NCBI GenBank assembly: GCA_029264685.1
Contig: JARHZW010000100.1
Span: 1-62,368, forward strand
Reading direction: 5' to 3'
DNA: 62,368 nt
From: Candidatus Limivicinus sp.
GTDB lineage: Bacteria > Bacillota > Clostridia > Oscillospirales > Oscillospiraceae
Position 1 is the first letter of the stretch; each line of letters opens with the position of its first letter. The notes beneath the pieces were generated by a model that had not been told where the DNA came from, made no database searches, and saw only the letters and a program-made list of their open reading frames with translations. A program made the translations under genes and the position numbers. This document shows positions 26,840-37,349 of this stretch, piece after piece.

Positions 26840-27637
26840 TTATAATCCAAATTTCTTCAAAACTATAACCACAATCAGGAAAAGAACTCCGATTGAAAGT
26901 GCCGCCCAGTCCTTTCCGGACATTACAAGCTTTTTCATCCTTGTTCTGCCCTCGCCGCCGTGGTAGCAGCGGCTCTCCATGGCAACCGCCAGTTCATCCG
27001 CTCTTCTGAACGCAGATACAAAAAGCGGCACAAGTATAGGCAGCATGGCCTTTGCACGCCTTATAATGTTTCCCGTTTCAAAATCTGCCCCCCTTGCTTT
27101 CTGGGCAGACATGATTTTATCCGTCTCCTCAATAAGCGTAGGAATAAAGCGCAGCGCCATGCTCATCATTATGGTCATTTCGTGAACAGGAACCTTTATC
27201 TTTTTGAGCGGATTTAAAAGTATCTCCAGACCGTCCGTAAGGGCCATGGGGCTTGTGGTATATGTCAGCAGAAAAGTACCGGTGACAAGCAGCGTAATAC
27301 GAAGTATCATCTTAGCCGCTCTGTCTATACCCTCCCATGTAATGATCCAGCCGGGCAGAACAGGGGTTCCCTGAGTATAAAATATATTCAGTATTCCCGT
27401 AAGGACTATAATAAATATCATGGGCTTCATGCCCTTAAAGATATTTTTAGGCTTTATTTTAGAAAGCCACATGGAAGCTGCCGTAAACACCGCCACCACA
27501 GCGTAGCCTGCCCACCCCTTTGCCTGAAAGAGCATGACTATATACAGCACCACAAGCAGCAGCTTGGTTCTGGGGTCAAGCCTGTGAACAGGGGTATCCG
27601 CCGGGAAGAACTGCCCTAAAGTAATATCCTTCAGCAT
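26840..27637 (-). CDS. ecfT: Energy-coupling factor transporter transmembrane protein EcfT
   Basis: A 265-residue membrane scaffold joining two ATPases to exchangeable substrate-binding S components for vitamins and metals. It has about five hydrophobic segments and the coupling motifs seen as AQKARGADF and SAFRRADELAVAMESRCY (the Ala-Arg-Gly pattern). It overlaps ecfA2 by seven bases. No S component is encoded nearby, so it should serve several S proteins as a group II ECF module. Confidence 0.95.
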   Translation of the reverse strand: MLKDITLGQFFPADTPVHRLDPRTKLLLVVLYIVMLFQAKGWAGYAVVAVFTAASMWLSKIKPKNIFKGMKPMIFIIVLTGILNIFYTQGTPVLPGWIITWEGIDRAAKMILRITLLVTGTFLLTYTTSPMALTDGLEILLNPLKKIKVPVHEMTIMMSMALRFIPTLIEETDKIMSAQKARGADFETGNIIRRAKAMLPILVPLFVSAFRRADELAVAMESRCYHGGEGRTRMKKLVMSGKDWAALSIGVLFLIVVIVLKKFGL

Positions 27638-28491
27638 TTTCCCGCCCCCTTAACCTGAAGCACGGCTTTTTTCAGCTGCTCATGGGTGTAAACGGAGCGT
27701 GGGATATCAATTCCCCGCTGTCTGAGCGCCATTGCAACAGCTGTTGGTCTCGGAACTGCCAGACCTATCTTGATAAGCTCCTCCGGCTGAGAAAACACCT
27801 GCTCCGGAGTGCCGTCCATTTTTATGCTGCCGTGGTCAAACACCAGAATACGCTGGGCAAATTCCGCCGCATCATCCATATTGTGGCTGACAACAATAAC
27901 CGTGGCACCGCTTATTTCACGGTAGCGCTTTATATTGTCCATTATCTGGCGGCAGCCTGCCGGATCTAGGCCTGCGGTAGGTTCATCCAGAATAAGCACT
28001 CCCGGACGCATTGCCATAACACCGGCTATTGCGATCCTGCGCTTCTGACCGCCCGAAAGCTCCAGAGGCGATTTTTCAAAAAGCTCCTCCGAAACTCCGG
28101 TAAACTCAGCTGCTTCCCGTACCCGCTCGTCAACTTCTTTTTCGCTCAGCCCCATATTTTTCGGGCCGAAGGCAATGTCCGCATATACGGTTTCCTCAAA
28201 AAGCTGGTATTCAGGGTATTGGAAAACAAGGCTTACCTGCCATTTCACATCACGCCTTGACTGCTTGCTTTCGTTTATATCCCTGCCATCCACGAGTATC
28301 CTGCCGGAGCTTGGTTCCAGCAAGGCGTTGAGATGCTGGATAAAGGTGGATTTTCCTGACCCCGTATGCCCTATAAGACCTACGAACTGTCCGTGGGGAA
28401 TAACAAGGTTAATATTTTCTATTGCTGTTTTTTCAAACGGAGTATCCATGCTGTATGTGTGGCATAAATTCTCCACTCTGATTTCTGCCAT
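27631..28491 (-). CDS. ecfA2: ECF transporter ATPase EcfA2
   Basis: A 286-residue ABC ATPase: Walker A GHTGSGKST, signature LSGGQKRRIAIAGV, Walker B VLILDEPTAGLDP, and a switch His in VVSHNMDD. The track ORF starts at 28542, but the ATG at 28491 has AGAGGA upstream and begins the conserved MAEIRVENL. It follows ecfA1 by 11 bases and forms a heterodimer with it. Confidence 0.95.
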   Translation of the reverse strand: MAEIRVENLCHTYSMDTPFEKTAIENINLVIPHGQFVGLIGHTGSGKSTFIQHLNALLEPSSGRILVDGRDINESKQSRRDVKWQVSLVFQYPEYQLFEETVYADIAFGPKNMGLSEKEVDERVREAAEFTGVSEELFEKSPLELSGGQKRRIAIAGVMAMRPGVLILDEPTAGLDPAGCRQIMDNIKRYREISGATVIVVSHNMDDAAEFAQRILVFDHGSIKMDGTPEQVFSQPEELIKIGLAVPRPTAVAMALRQRGIDIPRSVYTHEQLKKAVLQVKGAGKC

Positions 28492-28502
28492 TCTGTTTCC
28501 TC

Positions 28503-29342
28503 TTATATTTTTCTTAGTGCCGCCGCAATTGCATCGGCGCATGAATCCACATCCAATGCGTCCAAAGGCAGTCTCATTCCCTCAAGATTAAGCTCATACA
28601 TAAGCCGTGTTGTCTCCGGAACATCAAGTCCCTCGCTCTGCATAAGCTCCACCTGAGAAAACACGGCTCCGGGTTTTCCGTCGGCTATAACAACACCGTT
28701 TGACATTACAATAAGCCTGTCCGCATTTATGCACTCGTCCATATGGTGCGTAATCAGCACCACCGTCATTCCATGCTCACGGCAAAGCTTTGTAATACTC
28801 TCTATAACCTCCCGTCTGCCCTGAGGGTCGAGCATTGCGGTAGGTTCGTCCAGAACGATAATTTCCGGCTCCATAGCGATAACGCCGGCTATGGCAACTC
28901 TCTGCTTCTGACCGCCGGAGAGCAGGTGAGGCGCATGAAGTCTGTATTCGTACATTCCCACCATTTTAAGGGCATTGTCAACCCTTTTTCTTATCTCTTC
29001 CATTGGTACTCCCAGATTTTCGGGAGCAAAGGCCACGTCATCCTCCACAACATTTGCAACTATCTGGTTGTCGGGATTTTGAAATACCATGCCCACGGAG
29101 CGCCTTACCTCTAAAAGCCTGTCCTCGTCCGATGTATCTGTATCTTTAACGTAGACCTTGCCCTCAGTAGGCGTAAGTATGGCGTTCATATGCTTTGCAA
29201 GCGTAGATTTTCCGGAGCCGTTATGCCCCAGTACCGCCACAAAGCTGCCTTTTTCTATTTCCAGATTTATCCCTTTAAGCGTCTCGATGTCATCATCGGG
29301 ATAAGTGTAATGCACATCTTTAAAGCTAATTACCGAATTCAA
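28503..29342 (-). CDS. ecfA1: ECF transporter ATPase EcfA1, TTG start
   Basis: A 279-residue ABC ATPase: Walker A GHNGSGKST, signature LSGGQKQRVAIAGV, Walker B IIVLDEPTAMLDP, switch His in LITHHMDE. The 366-codon track ORF runs back into the methyltransferase gene and has no ATG near the conserved start. A TTG at 29342 has GAGAGGA upstream at eight bases and gives LNSVISFKDVHYTYP, so I take it as the start. Its ATPase core looks complete. Confidence 0.94.
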   Translation of the reverse strand: MNSVISFKDVHYTYPDDDIETLKGINLEIEKGSFVAVLGHNGSGKSTLAKHMNAILTPTEGKVYVKDTDTSDEDRLLEVRRSVGMVFQNPDNQIVANVVEDDVAFAPENLGVPMEEIRKRVDNALKMVGMYEYRLHAPHLLSGGQKQRVAIAGVIAMEPEIIVLDEPTAMLDPQGRREVIESITKLCREHGMTVVLITHHMDECINADRLIVMSNGVVIADGKPGAVFSQVELMQSEGLDVPETTRLMYELNLEGMRLPLDALDVDSCADAIAAALRKI

Positions 29343-29356
29343 ATCTAAATCCTCTC

Positions 29357-30217
29357 TCAGCGCTCCCAGCGGCAGGTTGCACCGCAGGGCAGATACAGCC
29401 CGCTCTCCGTTACGGGAAGCGCCAGCTCCTGACTGTCGGATCTGCCGCCGAATTTTTTTGTAAATATACTCTCCGCAACATAGGACAAAACAGAGGGTGA
29501 AAGACCGGTAGTATAGGAATTTATAATAACAAAAAGAGGGTTGTCTGACAGAACATCTGCACACAGAGAAACAAAGGGCCAGAGATTCTGCTCCAGTTTC
29601 CACACCTCACCGCCGGGGCCTCTGCCATAAGACGGCGGGTCCATAATAATGGCGTCATAACGGTGTCCCCTGCGTATCTCTCTCTCCACGAACTTGGCGC
29701 AGTCATCAACTATCCAGCGGATAGGTGCATCCGAAAGGCCGGATGAAGCGGCATTTTCCTTGCCCCAGCTTACCATTCCCTTGGCTGCATCCACATGGCA
29801 CACGCTGGCCCCTGCCTTTGCACAGGCAACGGTAGCCCCGCCAGTATATGCAAAAAGGTTCAGCACATTTATATGCCGTCCTGCATTTTTGATTTTATCC
29901 ATAGCCCAGTCCCAGTTGGCAGCCTGTTCGGGGAAAATGCCGGTGTGCTTAAAATTCATGGGTTTTACATTAAACGTAAGCTCGCCGTAATGCACCTGCC
30001 AGTTCTGAGGCAGCTTTCCCTTGTCCCAGCTGCCGCCGCCGCTTTTTGAGCGGCTGTACTCGGCGTCACGCCTGTACCACAATTTATTTTTTCTCGGGGT
30101 ATCCCATATAGCCTGAGGATCCGGACGAACCAGATAATAGTCTCCCCATCTTTCCAGTTTTTCACCCTTTGAGCAGTCTATAAGCTCAAAATCCTGCCAT
30201 TTATCCGAAAGCCACAT
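29357..30217 (-). CDS. SAM-dependent methyltransferase, RlmI/COG1092-like
   Basis: A 286-residue class I methyltransferase. The nucleotide-binding region is NLFAYTGGATVACAKAGASVCHVDAAKGMVSW and the catalytic segment is IIMDPPSYGRGPGGEVW, as in RlmI-type 23S rRNA cytosine methyltransferases. The PUA domain of RlmI is missing. It is therefore related but may modify another RNA. The ATG at 30217 has GGTGAAG upstream. It heads the transcript that continues into ecfA1-ecfA2-ecfT-truA. Confidence 0.82.
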   Translation of the reverse strand: MWLSDKWQDFELIDCSKGEKLERWGDYYLVRPDPQAIWDTPRKNKLWYRRDAEYSRSKSGGGSWDKGKLPQNWQVHYGELTFNVKPMNFKHTGIFPEQAANWDWAMDKIKNAGRHINVLNLFAYTGGATVACAKAGASVCHVDAAKGMVSWGKENAASSGLSDAPIRWIVDDCAKFVEREIRRGHRYDAIIMDPPSYGRGPGGEVWKLEQNLWPFVSLCADVLSDNPLFVIINSYTTGLSPSVLSYVAESIFTKKFGGRSDSQELALPVTESGLYLPCGATCRWER

Positions 30218-30360: not shown

Positions 30361-31161
30361 TCAATGTGCATTATAGTAGTAAATTGCCGTACTGTCTGTA
30401 AGAACTGTGTCACAGCGGCCCGAAAACAGATAACTGAAGCACTCGGTGGTGCCTCCTGCAAGTCTGGTAATCTGGCCCATTCTGTTGGACAGCTTCTCGT
30501 CAGTGTTGAGAGCCTCAAGAGCCTCCGGAGTGGAGCTCATAACCATTTTCTTACCCGAAAGCATAAGCTTATTCCATATAAGGCTGCCGTCTCTGGCAGC
30601 TATTACAATATCGTTGTGGACATAAGGACCGTACTGGAAAACTCTGCCTTTATCTATATCCTCCTGATTTATGGCAATGCCGCCCCACGCACAGTCAATA
30701 TTTCCTGAGGACAGCTCCACATACACATTTTCTTTCTCTATCGGCTGGATTTTCAGATTCCAGCCCAGTCGCTCGCAAACCGCAATGGCCAGCTCCACAT
30801 CGTGGCCCCAGTATTCGCCGTTTGCAATGTACGCCATAGGAAATGAGTTTATATCAACACCGATGATAAAATCTCTTGGCTCGGGCATACCTACTTTTTC
30901 CAGCGCCCTTGCATTCTTCTTGAAGTTTATAATCTTGCTTCCAAACCATTTCGATGAAAGCTCTGCCACTTTTCCTTCTGCCGTTAAAGTTTCAATAGCC
31001 GCAATAACATAAGCTGCCGTAGGGTCTCCGGTTCTGAAGCCCAGAGAGTAATCCTGCTCCACCAGAGTCTGCACCACCTTAACGCCGTAAGAGCCGCCTC
31101 CGCAGCCTGCGGCGCTCAGGCAAATACAGACTGCAAGCAATATACATAAAGTTTTTTTCAT
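30361..31161 (-). CDS. Solute-binding lipoprotein (SBP_bac_3 type) with apparently circularly permuted domain order
   Basis: A 266-residue lipoprotein with a signal ending SAAGC (Cys20). The family is that of amino-acid-binding proteins, but the order is wrong. Residues 24-75 (VKVVQTLVEQDYSLGFRTGD to GKVAELSSKWFG) match what normally forms the extreme C-terminus. Only after a linker does the usual N-terminal lobe begin (FIIGVDINSFPMAYIANGE, GHDVELAIAVCERLGW, SGNIDCAWGGIAIN). The protein then stops at GRCDTVLTDSTAIYYYNAH, exactly where the normal C-terminal segment would follow. All parts of the fold seem present once. No ABC permease or ATPase is adjacent. It is 22 bases after the serine hydrolase gene and likely co-transcribed. 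Confidence 0.8.
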   Translation of the reverse strand: MKKTLCILLAVCICLSAAGCGGGSYGVKVVQTLVEQDYSLGFRTGDPTAAYVIAAIETLTAEGKVAELSSKWFGSKIINFKKNARALEKVGMPEPRDFIIGVDINSFPMAYIANGEYWGHDVELAIAVCERLGWNLKIQPIEKENVYVELSSGNIDCAWGGIAINQEDIDKGRVFQYGPYVHNDIVIAARDGSLIWNKLMLSGKKMVMSSTPEALEALNTDEKLSNRMGQITRLAGGTTECFSYLFSGRCDTVLTDSTAIYYYNAH

Positions 31162-31183: not shown

Positions 31184-32425
31184 TTAATGTTTAGGCTGAT
31201 ATTTATCCTTCGAGGTTTTGCTCACGGTTTTTTTCTTCTCAGGAATTTTTGCGGTTCTCTCCTCTGCTCTTTCCCTTCTGCCTTTTTTCTTCATAACCGC
31301 TGACAAAAGGACAGCCGCCACGGCAGCAGCACCCGGTACACCCGCAATCACAAGAGCTTTTTTAGCAAAGGAACCCTTCTTTTCCGTGGTTTCCTTATTT
31401 TCTGGTGCAGGATTTTGCTGTTGGGTCTGTGGCTGCTCCTGCTCCGGTTTTTCCTGCTCTTCCTGTTTTTCCTCTTCCGCTTTTCTCTGCTCTTCCTGAG
31501 CCTTTCTCTCCTCTTCTGCCTTTCTCTGTTCTTCCTCTGCCCTGGCTTTTTCAAATGCATCCAGCTTTTCGTCAAGCGCAAGGGTGTACTCCTCAAAAAT
31601 CGGGGCAAAGCCGGCAATCAGATCGTCGTTCAGGCCCATCTGCTCGGTCATAACCACAAGTATAAAGGGATTCGGCGTGTAAACTATTCCGGCGGTGTGG
31701 CTGAAAGCCTTGTTGCTTCTGTCCACAAGCGCCCCGTATTTCTGGGCAATTTCATACTTGCCGCCCAGTGTTCGGTTAAAATATGTATCAGGCTGCGCCT
31801 GTTTCAGACATTCGATAATATTCGGGAAGCGCTCGTTTTCAAAATACAGAGTTTTCATAACGTCCGTCATGAATCGGGCATTAAAATAGCTGTAATCATA
31901 AAAGTTATCCACATAATCCTCTTTTGGCATATCTGAATATCTCTGGTACAGCTCTCTGACCTTTTTGTTTCCCTCAGGAGTTTCATACGGTACATCGGCT
32001 ATATAATTCATGGTAAGGTGGCCGTAATCATTATTGGAGTAGACCAGAACCAGCTTTTCAAGTTCCGAAAGTTTCATACCTCTTATATCGGAATCCTGAG
32101 TCAGCTTTCCGGCGTGCTCACCCTCTGCCATAATCATAAAAAGGGGCACTTTATACATACTTGCGCTGTAATACCACTTATCTCCGTTGTAAAGCCATGT
32201 GTCTCCGGTAGCAGTATAGCAGTAGCCTATGCTTATGTTGTCCTTGTTCAGGTTTTTGGACGCTATATAATCTTCAAGCTTTTGCTGAAGCTCCTGTCCG
32301 TCTATAATGCTCTCCTGTGGGCTTTCAGGCTCTTCTGCGAATGCGGCGGTAAGCGGCAGAACAAATACCATGCAGAGCATAAGGCATATTGAGGTTTTAA
32401 ATATTTTTGAAACTCGTTTCAACAC
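31184..32425 (-). CDS. Membrane-anchored serine hydrolase, class A beta-lactamase fold
   Basis: 413 residues. An N-terminal signal peptide ends near AFA-EE. The beta-lactamase-like domain shows SMYK (nucleophile Ser and Lys) near residue 90, a YSNND that fits the SxN motif, and HTAGIVY in place of KTG. A long Glu/Arg/Lys/Gln-rich coiled coil (EEQRKAEEERK repeats) follows, then Pro/Gln-rich linker, a membrane helix (ALVIAGVPGAAAVAAVLLSAVM) and a basic tail. The catalytic domain is thus held outside the cell on a stalk. Start is GTG at 32425 with AGGAG, or TTG one codon later. It may cut peptidoglycan or cell-wall peptides; a true antibiotic role is doubtful. Confidence 0.8.
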   Translation of the reverse strand: MLKRVSKIFKTSICLMLCMVFVLPLTAAFAEEPESPQESIIDGQELQQKLEDYIASKNLNKDNISIGYCYTATGDTWLYNGDKWYYSASMYKVPLFMIMAEGEHAGKLTQDSDIRGMKLSELEKLVLVYSNNDYGHLTMNYIADVPYETPEGNKKVRELYQRYSDMPKEDYVDNFYDYSYFNARFMTDVMKTLYFENERFPNIIECLKQAQPDTYFNRTLGGKYEIAQKYGALVDRSNKAFSHTAGIVYTPNPFILVVMTEQMGLNDDLIAGFAPIFEEYTLALDEKLDAFEKARAEEEQRKAEEERKAQEEQRKAEEEKQEEQEKPEQEQPQTQQQNPAPENKETTEKKGSFAKKALVIAGVPGAAAVAAVLLSAVMKKKGRRERAEERTAKIPEKKKTVSKTSKDKYQPKH

Positions 32426-32454
32426 TAAATCTCCTGAAGCTATATTTGTTTTTA

Positions 32455-32483
32455 AGAATACAGAATATTTCACACTAAATCAA
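32455..32483 (-). promoter_or_regulatory. Promoter of serine hydrolase and permuted SBP
   Basis: On the minus strand TTGATT, 17 bp, TATTCT. Confidence 0.65.
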
Positions 32484-32511: not shown

Positions 32512-33819
32512 TCAGAAAATCTCAATTTCTTCTCCCTGCCGTCTCACGGCGCTGCCGAAGAAATATTCAGCAGCTTTTATAAGGTACGCCGTATCGTCCG
32601 CACCGGCAGTCTCATATGCCGAATGCATTGCCAGCTGAGGAAGACCGATGTCCACGGAATCTATGGACACATGGGCAGAGCTTATATTTCCCAGTGTAGA
32701 GCCGCCGGGCATATCAGCTCTGTTGGTGTAGCTCTGCACAGGTACTTCCGCCCTGCCGCATATTTCGCTGAAAACAGCGGCAGAAACCCCATCCGTGGTG
32801 TACTTTTGATTTGCGTTATGCTTAATGACTATGCCCCTGTTCATTTTAGGTCTGTCATTTCTGTCCGCAAGTTCAGGATGGTTGGGGTGAACGGCGTGGG
32901 CATTATCGGCAGACACCATAAAGCTCTGGTTCAGGGCACGGAGATAATCGCCCCTGTTCATACCCTGCTTTTCGCATATGCGGCTCAGAGTATCTTCAAG
33001 AAAGCTGGAATCCGCTCCCTGTTTTGTACCGCTGCCCACTTCTTCATTGTCGAATATGCACAGCACCGGCACGCTGTTTCCGTTCTCAGCTTTCAGGAAG
33101 CCCTGCAAGCAGGAGAAAGCGCACTGTAAATCATCCAGTCTGGGTGCTGAAATGTATTCAAGGTTAGCCCCCCACTGAGTTCCCTTGTCACGGCAGTAGG
33201 TGAACATATCATAGGAGACAATATTTTCTTTTTCCGCCTCTGCGGCCTCTGCCAGAATATCTTCAAAGCTCATTTTACCGTCTGCGCCGGAAAACAGCGG
33301 CAGCATATCCACATTTGCGTTGTAGCTCTTGCCGTCGTTTGCGCTTCTGTCCATATGAATGGCCACATTTGGTATCATTACAAGGTCTCTGTCAATATTT
33401 ACAAGCTTTGAGCGGAGCTTTCCGTTCTGCTTTACAAGAACTCTGCCTGCAAGGGACAAGGGTCTGTCAAGCCAGCTTGAGCAGATCATGCCGCCGTATC
33501 TTTCACAGTTTAGCTGAATGTACTCCCCCGCCGCTTTGACAGCAGGCCGGAATTTGACCTTAAAGCAGGGAGAATCCCCGTGGGCCGCCATAATCATAAA
33601 GCCTCTGAAATGATTTTCAGGCAGTTTGAAAGCTATAACGGAAGAACCGTTTCTGCGGGTGAAATATTTTCCTCCCCCTGCAATCGTCCAGTCCTCGCCC
33701 TCGTAAAGCTCGGTAAAGCCCTGAGCTTTCAGGGCTTCTGCGGTGTTTTCCGCTGCGTGCCATGCGGTAGGACTTTTTTCTATAAAATCAAACAGCTGTT
33801 CATTTATATTTTTATTCAT
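32512..33819 (-). CDS. M18 family aminopeptidase
   Basis: A 435-residue cytosolic zinc aminopeptidase that removes acidic or neutral N-terminal residues. The metal ligands lie in MAAHGDSPCFKVK, the CIFDNEEVGSGTKQGADSSF segment (catalytic Glu) and SADNAHAVHPNHPE, with a final His in DIGLPQLAMHSAYE. Family length is normal. The ATG at 33819 has GAGG nine bases upstream. Its promoter shares its -35 box with the divergent oligoendopeptidase gene. Confidence 0.93.
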   Translation of the reverse strand: MNKNINEQLFDFIEKSPTAWHAAENTAEALKAQGFTELYEGEDWTIAGGGKYFTRRNGSSVIAFKLPENHFRGFMIMAAHGDSPCFKVKFRPAVKAAGEYIQLNCERYGGMICSSWLDRPLSLAGRVLVKQNGKLRSKLVNIDRDLVMIPNVAIHMDRSANDGKSYNANVDMLPLFSGADGKMSFEDILAEAAEAEKENIVSYDMFTYCRDKGTQWGANLEYISAPRLDDLQCAFSCLQGFLKAENGNSVPVLCIFDNEEVGSGTKQGADSSFLEDTLSRICEKQGMNRGDYLRALNQSFMVSADNAHAVHPNHPELADRNDRPKMNRGIVIKHNANQKYTTDGVSAAVFSEICGRAEVPVQSYTNRADMPGGSTLGNISSAHVSIDSVDIGLPQLAMHSAYETAGADDTAYLIKAAEYFFGSAVRRQGEEIEIF

Positions 33820-33854
33820 GACCTTTAACCTCTTTTTCAATTCACAATGTTTTT

Positions 33855-35687: not shown

Positions 35688-37349
35688 TTAATCATTAAAT
35701 TCGCAGATAAAACCGATAGTACCCTTGTACCACTTGGGATAGTCAGCCACGGGATCGTTTCGGCTGTCGTTATATTCCCAGCCCTTGTTATTCCAGAGCA
35801 TAAGATAATCTTCTTTAGCTCCGTCATAACTGTCAACATAGGATGGTTCATCACCCTCGCCCCAGGGTGCAGGGAAGAAATCTACCTTTTCTCCGTTTTC
35901 CCAAACAAGGGTGTCGTTTATTCTGTGGCAGCCTATCCAGACACGGCCTAAACCGGCCTCCTCTGCAATACCGATAACCTTCTGAAGCTCCTCTGCATCG
36001 TTTATAACTACAAGGTAGCCGCCCTTCTCAATGCACAGGTCTCTTGCCTCGGTCCAGCTCACGTCATCCTTAAAGATTTCGTATCTTGAAGTCTTGGGGG
36101 CAGGAGTTTCTTCGAGTGCAGGTGTCTCTGCTTCAGGCGTCTGCTCTCCTGTAGCAGGGCTTTCGTCAGGAGTTTTCTCAGGCTCTGCAATGTCTATCAC
36201 CGGATTATCTGTAGGCATAAGGCCGATATTGGATTCGTCCTTATCAATAACCGGCAGATTGTCTATCTGACCTGAATTTTTATCCTCGTCCTTCCACTGG
36301 AAATCGTTAAGCCACGCATTAACGATTATAGCTGTAACAACGATAACAGCGCATATCACAAGAACTGCCGCCAAAGAGCGGTTGCGGCTTTTCTGGGCCT
36401 TGGCAGCCGTCTTTTTCTCATGCTCCGCATTGACTCCGTACCGAACGGCAGGCTGAATATTCTGCTTCAAAACCACAGGCTCGAGTTCGGGATTTCTGTC
36501 CTCAGTGAGAACGGGAACCTGCTGTTTTACCCGCTCCGGAGCTTTTCTCTGTTCCGGCTGTCTCCTTGGCTCAGGCGGTCTCTTGGGCGCAGGTCTTCTG
36601 GGTTTTCTCTTTACAGGCTCGTAAACCTTGATTTCTTCCTCCTCAGCCGCAGGCTCCTCCGGAATAACCGTTTCCTCAGGCCGGGCGGGAATTTCGGCAG
36701 CAGGCGCTTCTTCCTCCTGAGGCTCATCCACGCCGTTTTCTATAATGTCTACCATTATCCGCTCAATGTCAGACAGGTCATCATCATTTTTATTAAAGAG
36801 AGTCTCGGCACTGGATGCTCCGTTAAGATACAAATTCTTATCGCAGTTATCAAGCATTATCTTCATTTCTTCCAGATTTTTGTATCTGGCCTCCGGCTTA
36901 AAGCTGGTAGCCTTGCAGATTATTTCCGAAAGTCTTCTGCCGGCAGCTTTGGGTGCCGGAAAATCGTCCCCGTTCATGCGGCGGAGCTGAGGATTTTCAC
37001 ATTCTCCCTCATACGGAAGTCTGCCCTTATTAAAGGCATAATACAGCACCAGTCCCAGAGAATACACATCTGAAGCCTGAGATTTTTTCCCGTTCCAGTA
37101 AAGCTCAGGTGCAAGGAAATCCAGCTCCTGTCCTTCCCAATCCCCGCTTTTTGCAGGACCCAGGGCAACTCGGCCTTCGGCGTCCATACAAATATTTTCA
37201 GGGTAAATACCACCTCGATAAGCTCTTGTACCAACCTCTGCCACCACTCTGGCGCAAAGCTTGGAACCGAACTCGCAAAGCTCCTGCCGGTTCATATTCA
37301 CTATCTGCTTACCGAGAGTTTTACCAGGCTCAAATTTTATATCTGTCAT
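35688..37349 (-). CDS. Pseudokinase / transmembrane / C-type lectin fusion
   Basis: 553 residues in three parts. Residues about 30-165 resemble a kinase C-lobe: YRGGIYPENICMD sits where HRDIKPENILLD is expected, LDFLAPELY resembles the APE motif, and ASDVYSLGLVLYYAF matches helix F. The catalytic Asp (HRD) and the DFG are lost and the N-lobe is missing, so it should be inactive. A Pro/Glu/Arg-rich stretch and one membrane helix (about 323-346) follow. The outer C-terminus (421-553) is a C-type-lectin-like domain: WTEARDLCIEKGGYLVVIND, VWIGC, WGEGDEPS near the usual EPN position, and terminal FICEFND. It may sense or bind a wall ligand outside and signal inside. Confidence 0.82.
   Translation of the reverse strand: MTDIKFEPGKTLGKQIVNMNRQELCEFGSKLCARVVAEVGTRAYRGGIYPENICMDAEGRVALGPAKSGDWEGQELDFLAPELYWNGKKSQASDVYSLGLVLYYAFNKGRLPYEGECENPQLRRMNGDDFPAPKAAGRRLSEIICKATSFKPEARYKNLEEMKIMLDNCDKNLYLNGASSAETLFNKNDDDLSDIERIMVDIIENGVDEPQEEEAPAAEIPARPEETVIPEEPAAEEEEIKVYEPVKRKPRRPAPKRPPEPRRQPEQRKAPERVKQQVPVLTEDRNPELEPVVLKQNIQPAVRYGVNAEHEKKTAAKAQKSRNRSLAAVLVICAVIVVTAIIVNAWLNDFQWKDEDKNSGQIDNLPVIDKDESNIGLMPTDNPVIDIAEPEKTPDESPATGEQTPEAETPALEETPAPKTSRYEIFKDDVSWTEARDLCIEKGGYLVVINDAEELQKVIGIAEEAGLGRVWIGCHRINDTLVWENGEKVDFFPAPWGEGDEPSYVDSYDGAKEDYLMLWNNKGWEYNDSRNDPVADYPKWYKGTIGFICEFND

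Follow-up and report, generated by a model that had tools for sequence, protein, structure and literature searches.

The lipoprotein encoded at positions 30361–31161 on the reverse strand of the window, which is the whole stretch of 62,368 nucleotides that was analysed, is almost certainly a natural circular permutant of the SBP_bac_3 solute-binding proteins (SBPs). Its segments follow one another in the order C-terminal part, lobe 1 and lobe 2, whereas the ordinary order is lobe 1, lobe 2 and C-terminal part. Annotating such permuted proteins as truncated SBPs is misleading. A wider reading, put forward tentatively, is that SBP_bac_3 proteins have been permuted repeatedly and independently in Clostridia-type bacteria, at no fewer than three break points and in working importers, and that in the branch of the window the permuted receptor serves as a membrane-proximal sensor or accessory of a serine hydrolase.

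Order of the segments

The reading frame of 266 amino acids starts with a signal peptide (residues 1–19, positions 31105–31161; this and the following features are all on the reverse strand) that ends in the lipobox LSAAGC, read from the sequence. The lipidated cysteine, Cys20 (31102–31104), is unvaried across diverse permuted homologues and is followed by a tether of about six residues before the first strand of the model. Residues 26–75 (30937–31086), which were assigned by phmmer, profiles and the model, are the moved segment, composed of the second hinge strand and the SBP_bac_3 C-terminal helices. According to the alignments, residues 76–96 (30874–30936) are a linker that joins the old C-terminus to the old N-terminus; it is followed by lobe 1 with the first hinge strand (N1, residues 97–190, 30592–30873, PF00497 E 5.6e-20) and by lobe 2 (N2, residues 191–266, 30364–30591). 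In terms of sequence, the lipobox is followed by YSLGFRTGD...GKVAELSSKWFG and then by normal lobe-1 sequence, and the protein stops after DTVLTDSTAIYYYNAH. The new C-terminus, YYYNAH, is the point at which the canonical second hinge strand would begin.

Three profiles, derived from 46 ordinary, non-permuted SBPs chosen so as to avoid circularity, each match the protein a single time: the C-terminal profile at residues 33–74 (25.0 bits), lobe 1 at 98–188 (70.6 bits) and lobe 2 at 195–263 (26.4 bits). The permuted order is also found against the PDB with phmmer, by which residues 96–208 align to residues 24–135 of 4f3p and residues 26–76 align to residues 193–244 of the same chain. When the N-terminal 74 residues are the sole query, they match 4f3p at 194–244 (E 1.4e-4), and the remaining bacterial SBP chains with E<1 are likewise matched near their C-termini. 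The protein passes the family threshold of PF00497 (SBP_bac_3) with 71.9 bits, against a cut-off of 26.4, and its best Pfam stretch starts only at residue 99.

Together, the profiles and the model account for all SBP_bac_3 segments, namely lobe 1, lobe 2, the C-terminal helices and two hinge strands, not in the canonical order but as C, N1 and N2, each once, behind the lipobox. Judged by its sequence, the protein is a circularly permuted variant of PF00497, of Type II / cluster F, and not an ordinary member of the family. The first-pass annotation had proposed the permutation, and the canonical-only profiles and the PDB chain matches bear it out; the same holds for its observations that each part is present once, that the signal peptide is intact and that the new ends fall near the second crossover of the lobes, where the model has a hinge strand (residues 27–43). 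The separate profile alignment of the N-terminal segment and the rest, which it had recommended, returned the permuted order.

The moved segment is short, about 50 residues, and its similarity to SBP C-termini might be ascribed to chance or convergence, with nothing permuted. This reading is scarcely conceivable and can be ruled out, since the best of 2000 shuffled N-terminal pieces reaches 10.3 bits with the C-terminal profile against the 25.0 bits of the real segment, and homologues have the same order. In the transporter-linked homologues, scores of the C segments with the family profile reach 86 bits, and the segments align closely with their canonical sisters.

Predicted structure

An AlphaFold2 model, computed from 23 permuted sequences and no templates, is two-lobed and compact (pLDDT 90.6, pTM 0.84). 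It contains two 17-residue strands, at 27–43 and 174–190, as expected of the two hinge strands, and helices at 48–61 and 64–73, as expected of the C-terminal helices. In the GlnBP-like Type II / cluster F topology, the C-terminal helices return to lobe 1 and complete it. The first-pass annotation had the moved segment completing lobe 2, which is the wrong lobe: the second hinge strand and the helices complete lobe 1, and a refutation test based on whether the segment completes lobe 2 misnames the lobe for that reason. Foldseek and VIA-align retrieve SBP_bac_3 proteins with Z up to 13.8 (4ohn) over about 175 residues, a sequential matching that speaks to the fold only.

The permuted chain would begin with the second hinge strand and make the C-terminal helices of lobe 1, from which a linker of about 22 residues would lead to the old N-terminus. 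Lobe 1 would then be completed, and the chain would cross the first hinge strand and finish with lobe 2, so that a Venus flytrap fold is expected despite the permutation. The lipid anchor would be joined by some six residues close to the hinge and lobe 2, as opposed to the long tether at lobe 1 of canonical proteins. The tether from the cysteine to the first strand has a median length of 7 amino acids in permuted and 19 in canonical proteins, uncorrected for relatedness.

Conservation and selection

Colinear full-length orthologues, 55–71% identical, are present in 33 of 36 genomes of the same genus, where order, ends and linker are kept, and colinear orthologues also occur in 22 public MAG contigs, mostly from Oscillospiraceae or Clostridia of herbivore guts. 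All aligned rows stop at one residue, and His266 is invariant in 23 orthologues. For the dozen closest pairs dN/dS is mostly 0.05–0.17, which indicates purifying selection. The conservation across the genus and the low dN/dS therefore argue for a functional gene and not a remnant. The search for homologues of the same order that the first-pass annotation called for found them genus-wide and in many other families.

A broken or chimeric gene, such as a remnant of a tandem SBP, or an assembly artefact could look alike, since tandem SBP proteins exist in the phylum. It is nevertheless a very improbable explanation for an order and ends that are shared by more than 30 independent genomes under low dN/dS, for a gene with an intact signal peptide and terminator, and for a confident, compact model. 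Conservation refutes both a pseudogene and an assembly artefact, and the earlier assertion that the gene is not broken is upheld.

Repeated origins of the permutation

Classification of the fetched loci with the three-part profiles gave 113 reading frames of the C-N1-N2 order and 59 of the canonical N1-N2-C order, counts in which many loci come from one genus or were fetched twice. Five further frames (L170, L171, L172, L174 and L183) have N2 before C before N1; in four of them lobe 2 comes first and lobe 1 stands at the end, and in L172 the break is apparently inside lobe 2, not at the first hinge. By family code, no fewer than 15 families of the phylum contain permuted SBP_bac_3 proteins, with three break points. 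Such proteins are nearly absent from a phylum sample drawn mostly from other classes, in which six candidates per genome were scored, so that the counts are lower bounds among the matches listed.

A tree built from 86 reordered rows requires 10 state changes across all types, and the starred branches force a minimum of 6 changes in the C-N1-N2 type and of 3 in the N2-C-N1 type. The AU test rejects a topology that places every C-N1-N2 row in a single clade (p 9e-56). Gains and reversions are indistinguishable because the tree is unrooted; as read from these sequences, the permutation of SBP_bac_3 has several origins in the phylum. The closest relative outside the window's family is the transporter-linked protein L059, which is 38% identical and has a linker nearly equal in length to that of the window protein, and a tree with the window clade directly sister to it is compatible with the data (AU p 0.40). 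A subfamily with a KYGL-type C-terminus holds canonical, C-N1-N2 and N2-C-N1 members and a third order together (L003, L183, L173 and L171). The canonical L003, from the window genome (G000:C74:6083-6730), nests among permuted relatives.

The best matched pair is the canonical L116 and the permuted L064, which are 65% identical over 219 residues once reordered. The linker of L064 holds the canonical C-terminal tail, FGADVTTVPDT (compare FGSDISIVPDN of L116), and then the mature N-terminal stretch, DDGSLTKVKEAGKFILGLDD (compare GDDSLQKIKDKGELILGLDD of L116). A linker made of the old tail and the old N-terminal stretch is a signature of permutation by duplication. This most likely route would consist of a tandem duplication, in a receptor of an ABC importer, after which the front of the first copy and the back of the second would have been lost. 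The phylum also has intact tandem SBP-SBP proteins, L076 and L150, the former an SBP-SBP-permease fusion. Long frames that match the SBP profile at least twice are G034:C20 (1410 aa), G038:C5 (1224 aa), L076 and L150. Tandem and multi-SBP frames are possible intermediates of permutation by duplication.

Association with transporters and its loss

Outside the window's family, a permease gene lies within about 200 bp downstream of the permuted receptor gene, and an ATPase gene comes next, in nearly all of the neighbourhoods that reach far enough downstream to be counted. All five N2-C-N1 loci also precede permease and ATPase genes, and in L113–L115 the permease alone was seen before the fetched stretch ended. 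Most of the transporter-linked permuted receptors retain the canonical pocket residues. Permuted receptors very probably serve importers, since most of their genes immediately precede those of a permease and an ATPase. Neither a permease nor an ATPase gene was seen next to the receptor at the loci of family f76 (L110–L112 and L182) or at L165; the f76 proteins retain the canonical pocket, and their acidic tethers are long (about 37 amino acids).

The window genus belongs to family f1, the orphans of which (the genus itself, L058, L060, L074 and L077) have no permease beside the gene in the neighbourhood survey and lie on one side of a branch (100/98). Another permuted f1 protein, L073, is transporter-linked and groups elsewhere in the tree. 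In the window genome, three polar-amino-acid permease domains score over the cut-off, each beside its own canonical SBP, and the next permease match is part of a MetNIQ-like system that has a lipoprotein of its own. The window receptor is not encoded with a cognate permease and ATPase, as a receptor of a polar amino-acid importer would be. That no cognate permease is adjacent had already been noted from the sequence, and the observation extends to the whole genome, given that all three permeases have an SBP of their own. It is very likely that the window lineage lost its transporter, and its family would descend from a transporter-linked permutant.

Downstream of the receptor, at 26843–29420 on the reverse strand, there is an ECF-type module of two ATPases and a T-component-like protein, which accompanies the receptor at between roughly one third and one half of the orthologous loci. 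It represents a different transporter class and is not evidence of a cognate permease; the ATPase matches downstream in the window genus are ECF ATPases.

Ligand pocket and operon

In amino-acid receptors, arginine and threonine hold the carboxylate of the ligand and aspartate holds the amino group. The positions of GlnBP Thr70 and Arg75 are changed in the whole f1 orphan clade and that of Thr118 is mostly changed, while those of Asp10 and Asp157 are kept in the window genus and L058. The protein thus has the aspartate positions of a polar amino-acid receptor and not its arginine and threonine. Given that the carboxylate arginine is gone, a simple alpha-amino acid is improbable as the ligand. 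Residues that are newly invariant in the genus are Glu142-Lys143-Glu144, Arg233 and the C-terminal His266.

The receptor gene starts 22 bp past the stop of the upstream gene, which encodes a secreted serine hydrolase of the Beta-lactamase2 family (31184–32473, reverse strand, PF13354 E 2.1e-13), with a signal and a C-terminal transmembrane segment read by eye and no NCBIfam match at E 1e-5. This co-oriented gene is directly upstream in 17 of the 22 orthologous loci, usually at about 30 bp or less, and not so in the other 5. An M18 aminopeptidase (32512–33840, reverse strand, PF02127 E 1.1e-119), the first gene of the apparent operon, is also in the cluster at 17 of the 22. The order is M18 aminopeptidase, serine hydrolase, permuted receptor and terminator, the last being a strong intrinsic one (30349–30314, reverse strand; a 14-pair stem, then CCTTTTTT), as the first-pass annotation had reported. 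The promoter that it had assigned to the receptor gene is unsupported: the best promoter-like site, TTTGCA-18-TATAAT with TG (33884–33855, reverse strand, by consensus match only), lies 5′ of the M18 gene. The receptor gene is the last one of the apparent operon. A 553-aa protein at 35688–37349 (reverse strand) has an odd combination of partial protein-kinase-like matches (PF07714 and PF00069) and a C-type lectin match (PF00059).

Proposed role

The best overall explanation, which is favoured with some reserve, is that the protein is a permutant lipoprotein uncoupled from import that acts as an accessory or sensing subunit of a surface hydrolase. In the window family, the permuted receptor would have been cut off from its transporter and would have lost the residues that hold the carboxylate, and it may have been retained as a putative ligand-binding lipoprotein co-encoded with a membrane-bound serine hydrolase. 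As a best guess, it would assist this hydrolase or sense for it, and not import. The first-pass annotation had suggested that the protein might be a sensor and not an importer component; of this, the data support the missing transporter, and sensing is a conjecture. That the co-encoded hydrolase is the actual partner is possible but somewhat doubtful, and the neighbourhood alone is no proof of an interaction between the two.

Orphan SBPs can use a permease encoded at another locus, and the window protein might still function in import, docking on a permease that is shared and lies elsewhere in the genome, in keeping with the permuted homologues of other families, which adjoin permease and ATPase genes, and with the three polar-amino-acid permeases of the window genome. 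Each of these has an adjacent SBP, the nearest other candidate is the MetNIQ-like set with its lipoprotein, and the carboxylate-binding positions are changed clade-wide, all of which makes this unlikely. Still less probable, by a small step, is that the orphan lineage became an enzyme on the SBP scaffold. A precedent is cyclohexadienyl dehydratase, which evolved from SBP_bac_3 (PMC7683729), and the residues newly invariant in the genus would fit; a catalytic motif such as those of known SBP-derived enzymes was not recognised, however, and the presence of cyclohexadienyl dehydratase chains in the structural matches is due to the common fold only.

Comparison with known systems

Circular permutants of binding proteins have been made by engineers. 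A literature search, itself incomplete, that combined circular permutation with solute-, substrate- or amino-acid-binding proteins yielded nothing on SBP_bac_3; the one naturally permuted binding protein that it turned up is TpMglB-2 (Tp0684) from Treponema pallidum. This Type I binding lipoprotein led to the proposal of a "Type Ic / cluster Bc" class, and its authors suggested that this topology may reflect adaptation to anchoring in the membrane (PMC4990184). The repeated natural permutation described here falls in the best-studied class of import receptors. Canonical sisters are still 65% identical, which provides matched pairs in which the chain order and the anchor position are changed and the operon layout is the same. 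With such pairs one could test whether docking and transport depend on where the anchor sits, by what steps duplication yields a permuted chain, and whether a receptor parts from transport more readily once it is permuted.

TpMglB-2 and the window protein are alike in being natural circular permutations of a bilobed binding lipoprotein. TpMglB-2 is a glucose-binding protein of Type I / cluster B in which the first three strands of the N-lobe have moved near the C-terminus (PMC4990184), whereas the window protein is a Type II SBP_bac_3 protein in which the C-terminal segment has moved to the front, and it is one of a set in which permutation arose repeatedly and at three break points. Being Type II by sequence, it is not a member of the Type Ic class and has only the principle in common with it. 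With canonical SBP_bac_3 proteins (GlnH, 4f3p and 4ohn) it shares the homologous lobes, the hinge strands and the lobe-2 aspartate; it differs from them in segment order, in the position and length of the tether, in the absence of the carboxylate arginine and threonine, and in having no transporter. The transporter-linked permuted SBPs (L059, L061–L073 and others) agree with it in the C-N1-N2 order and are broken at a similar point, but their canonical pocket is mostly kept and their genes precede those of a permease and an ATPase.
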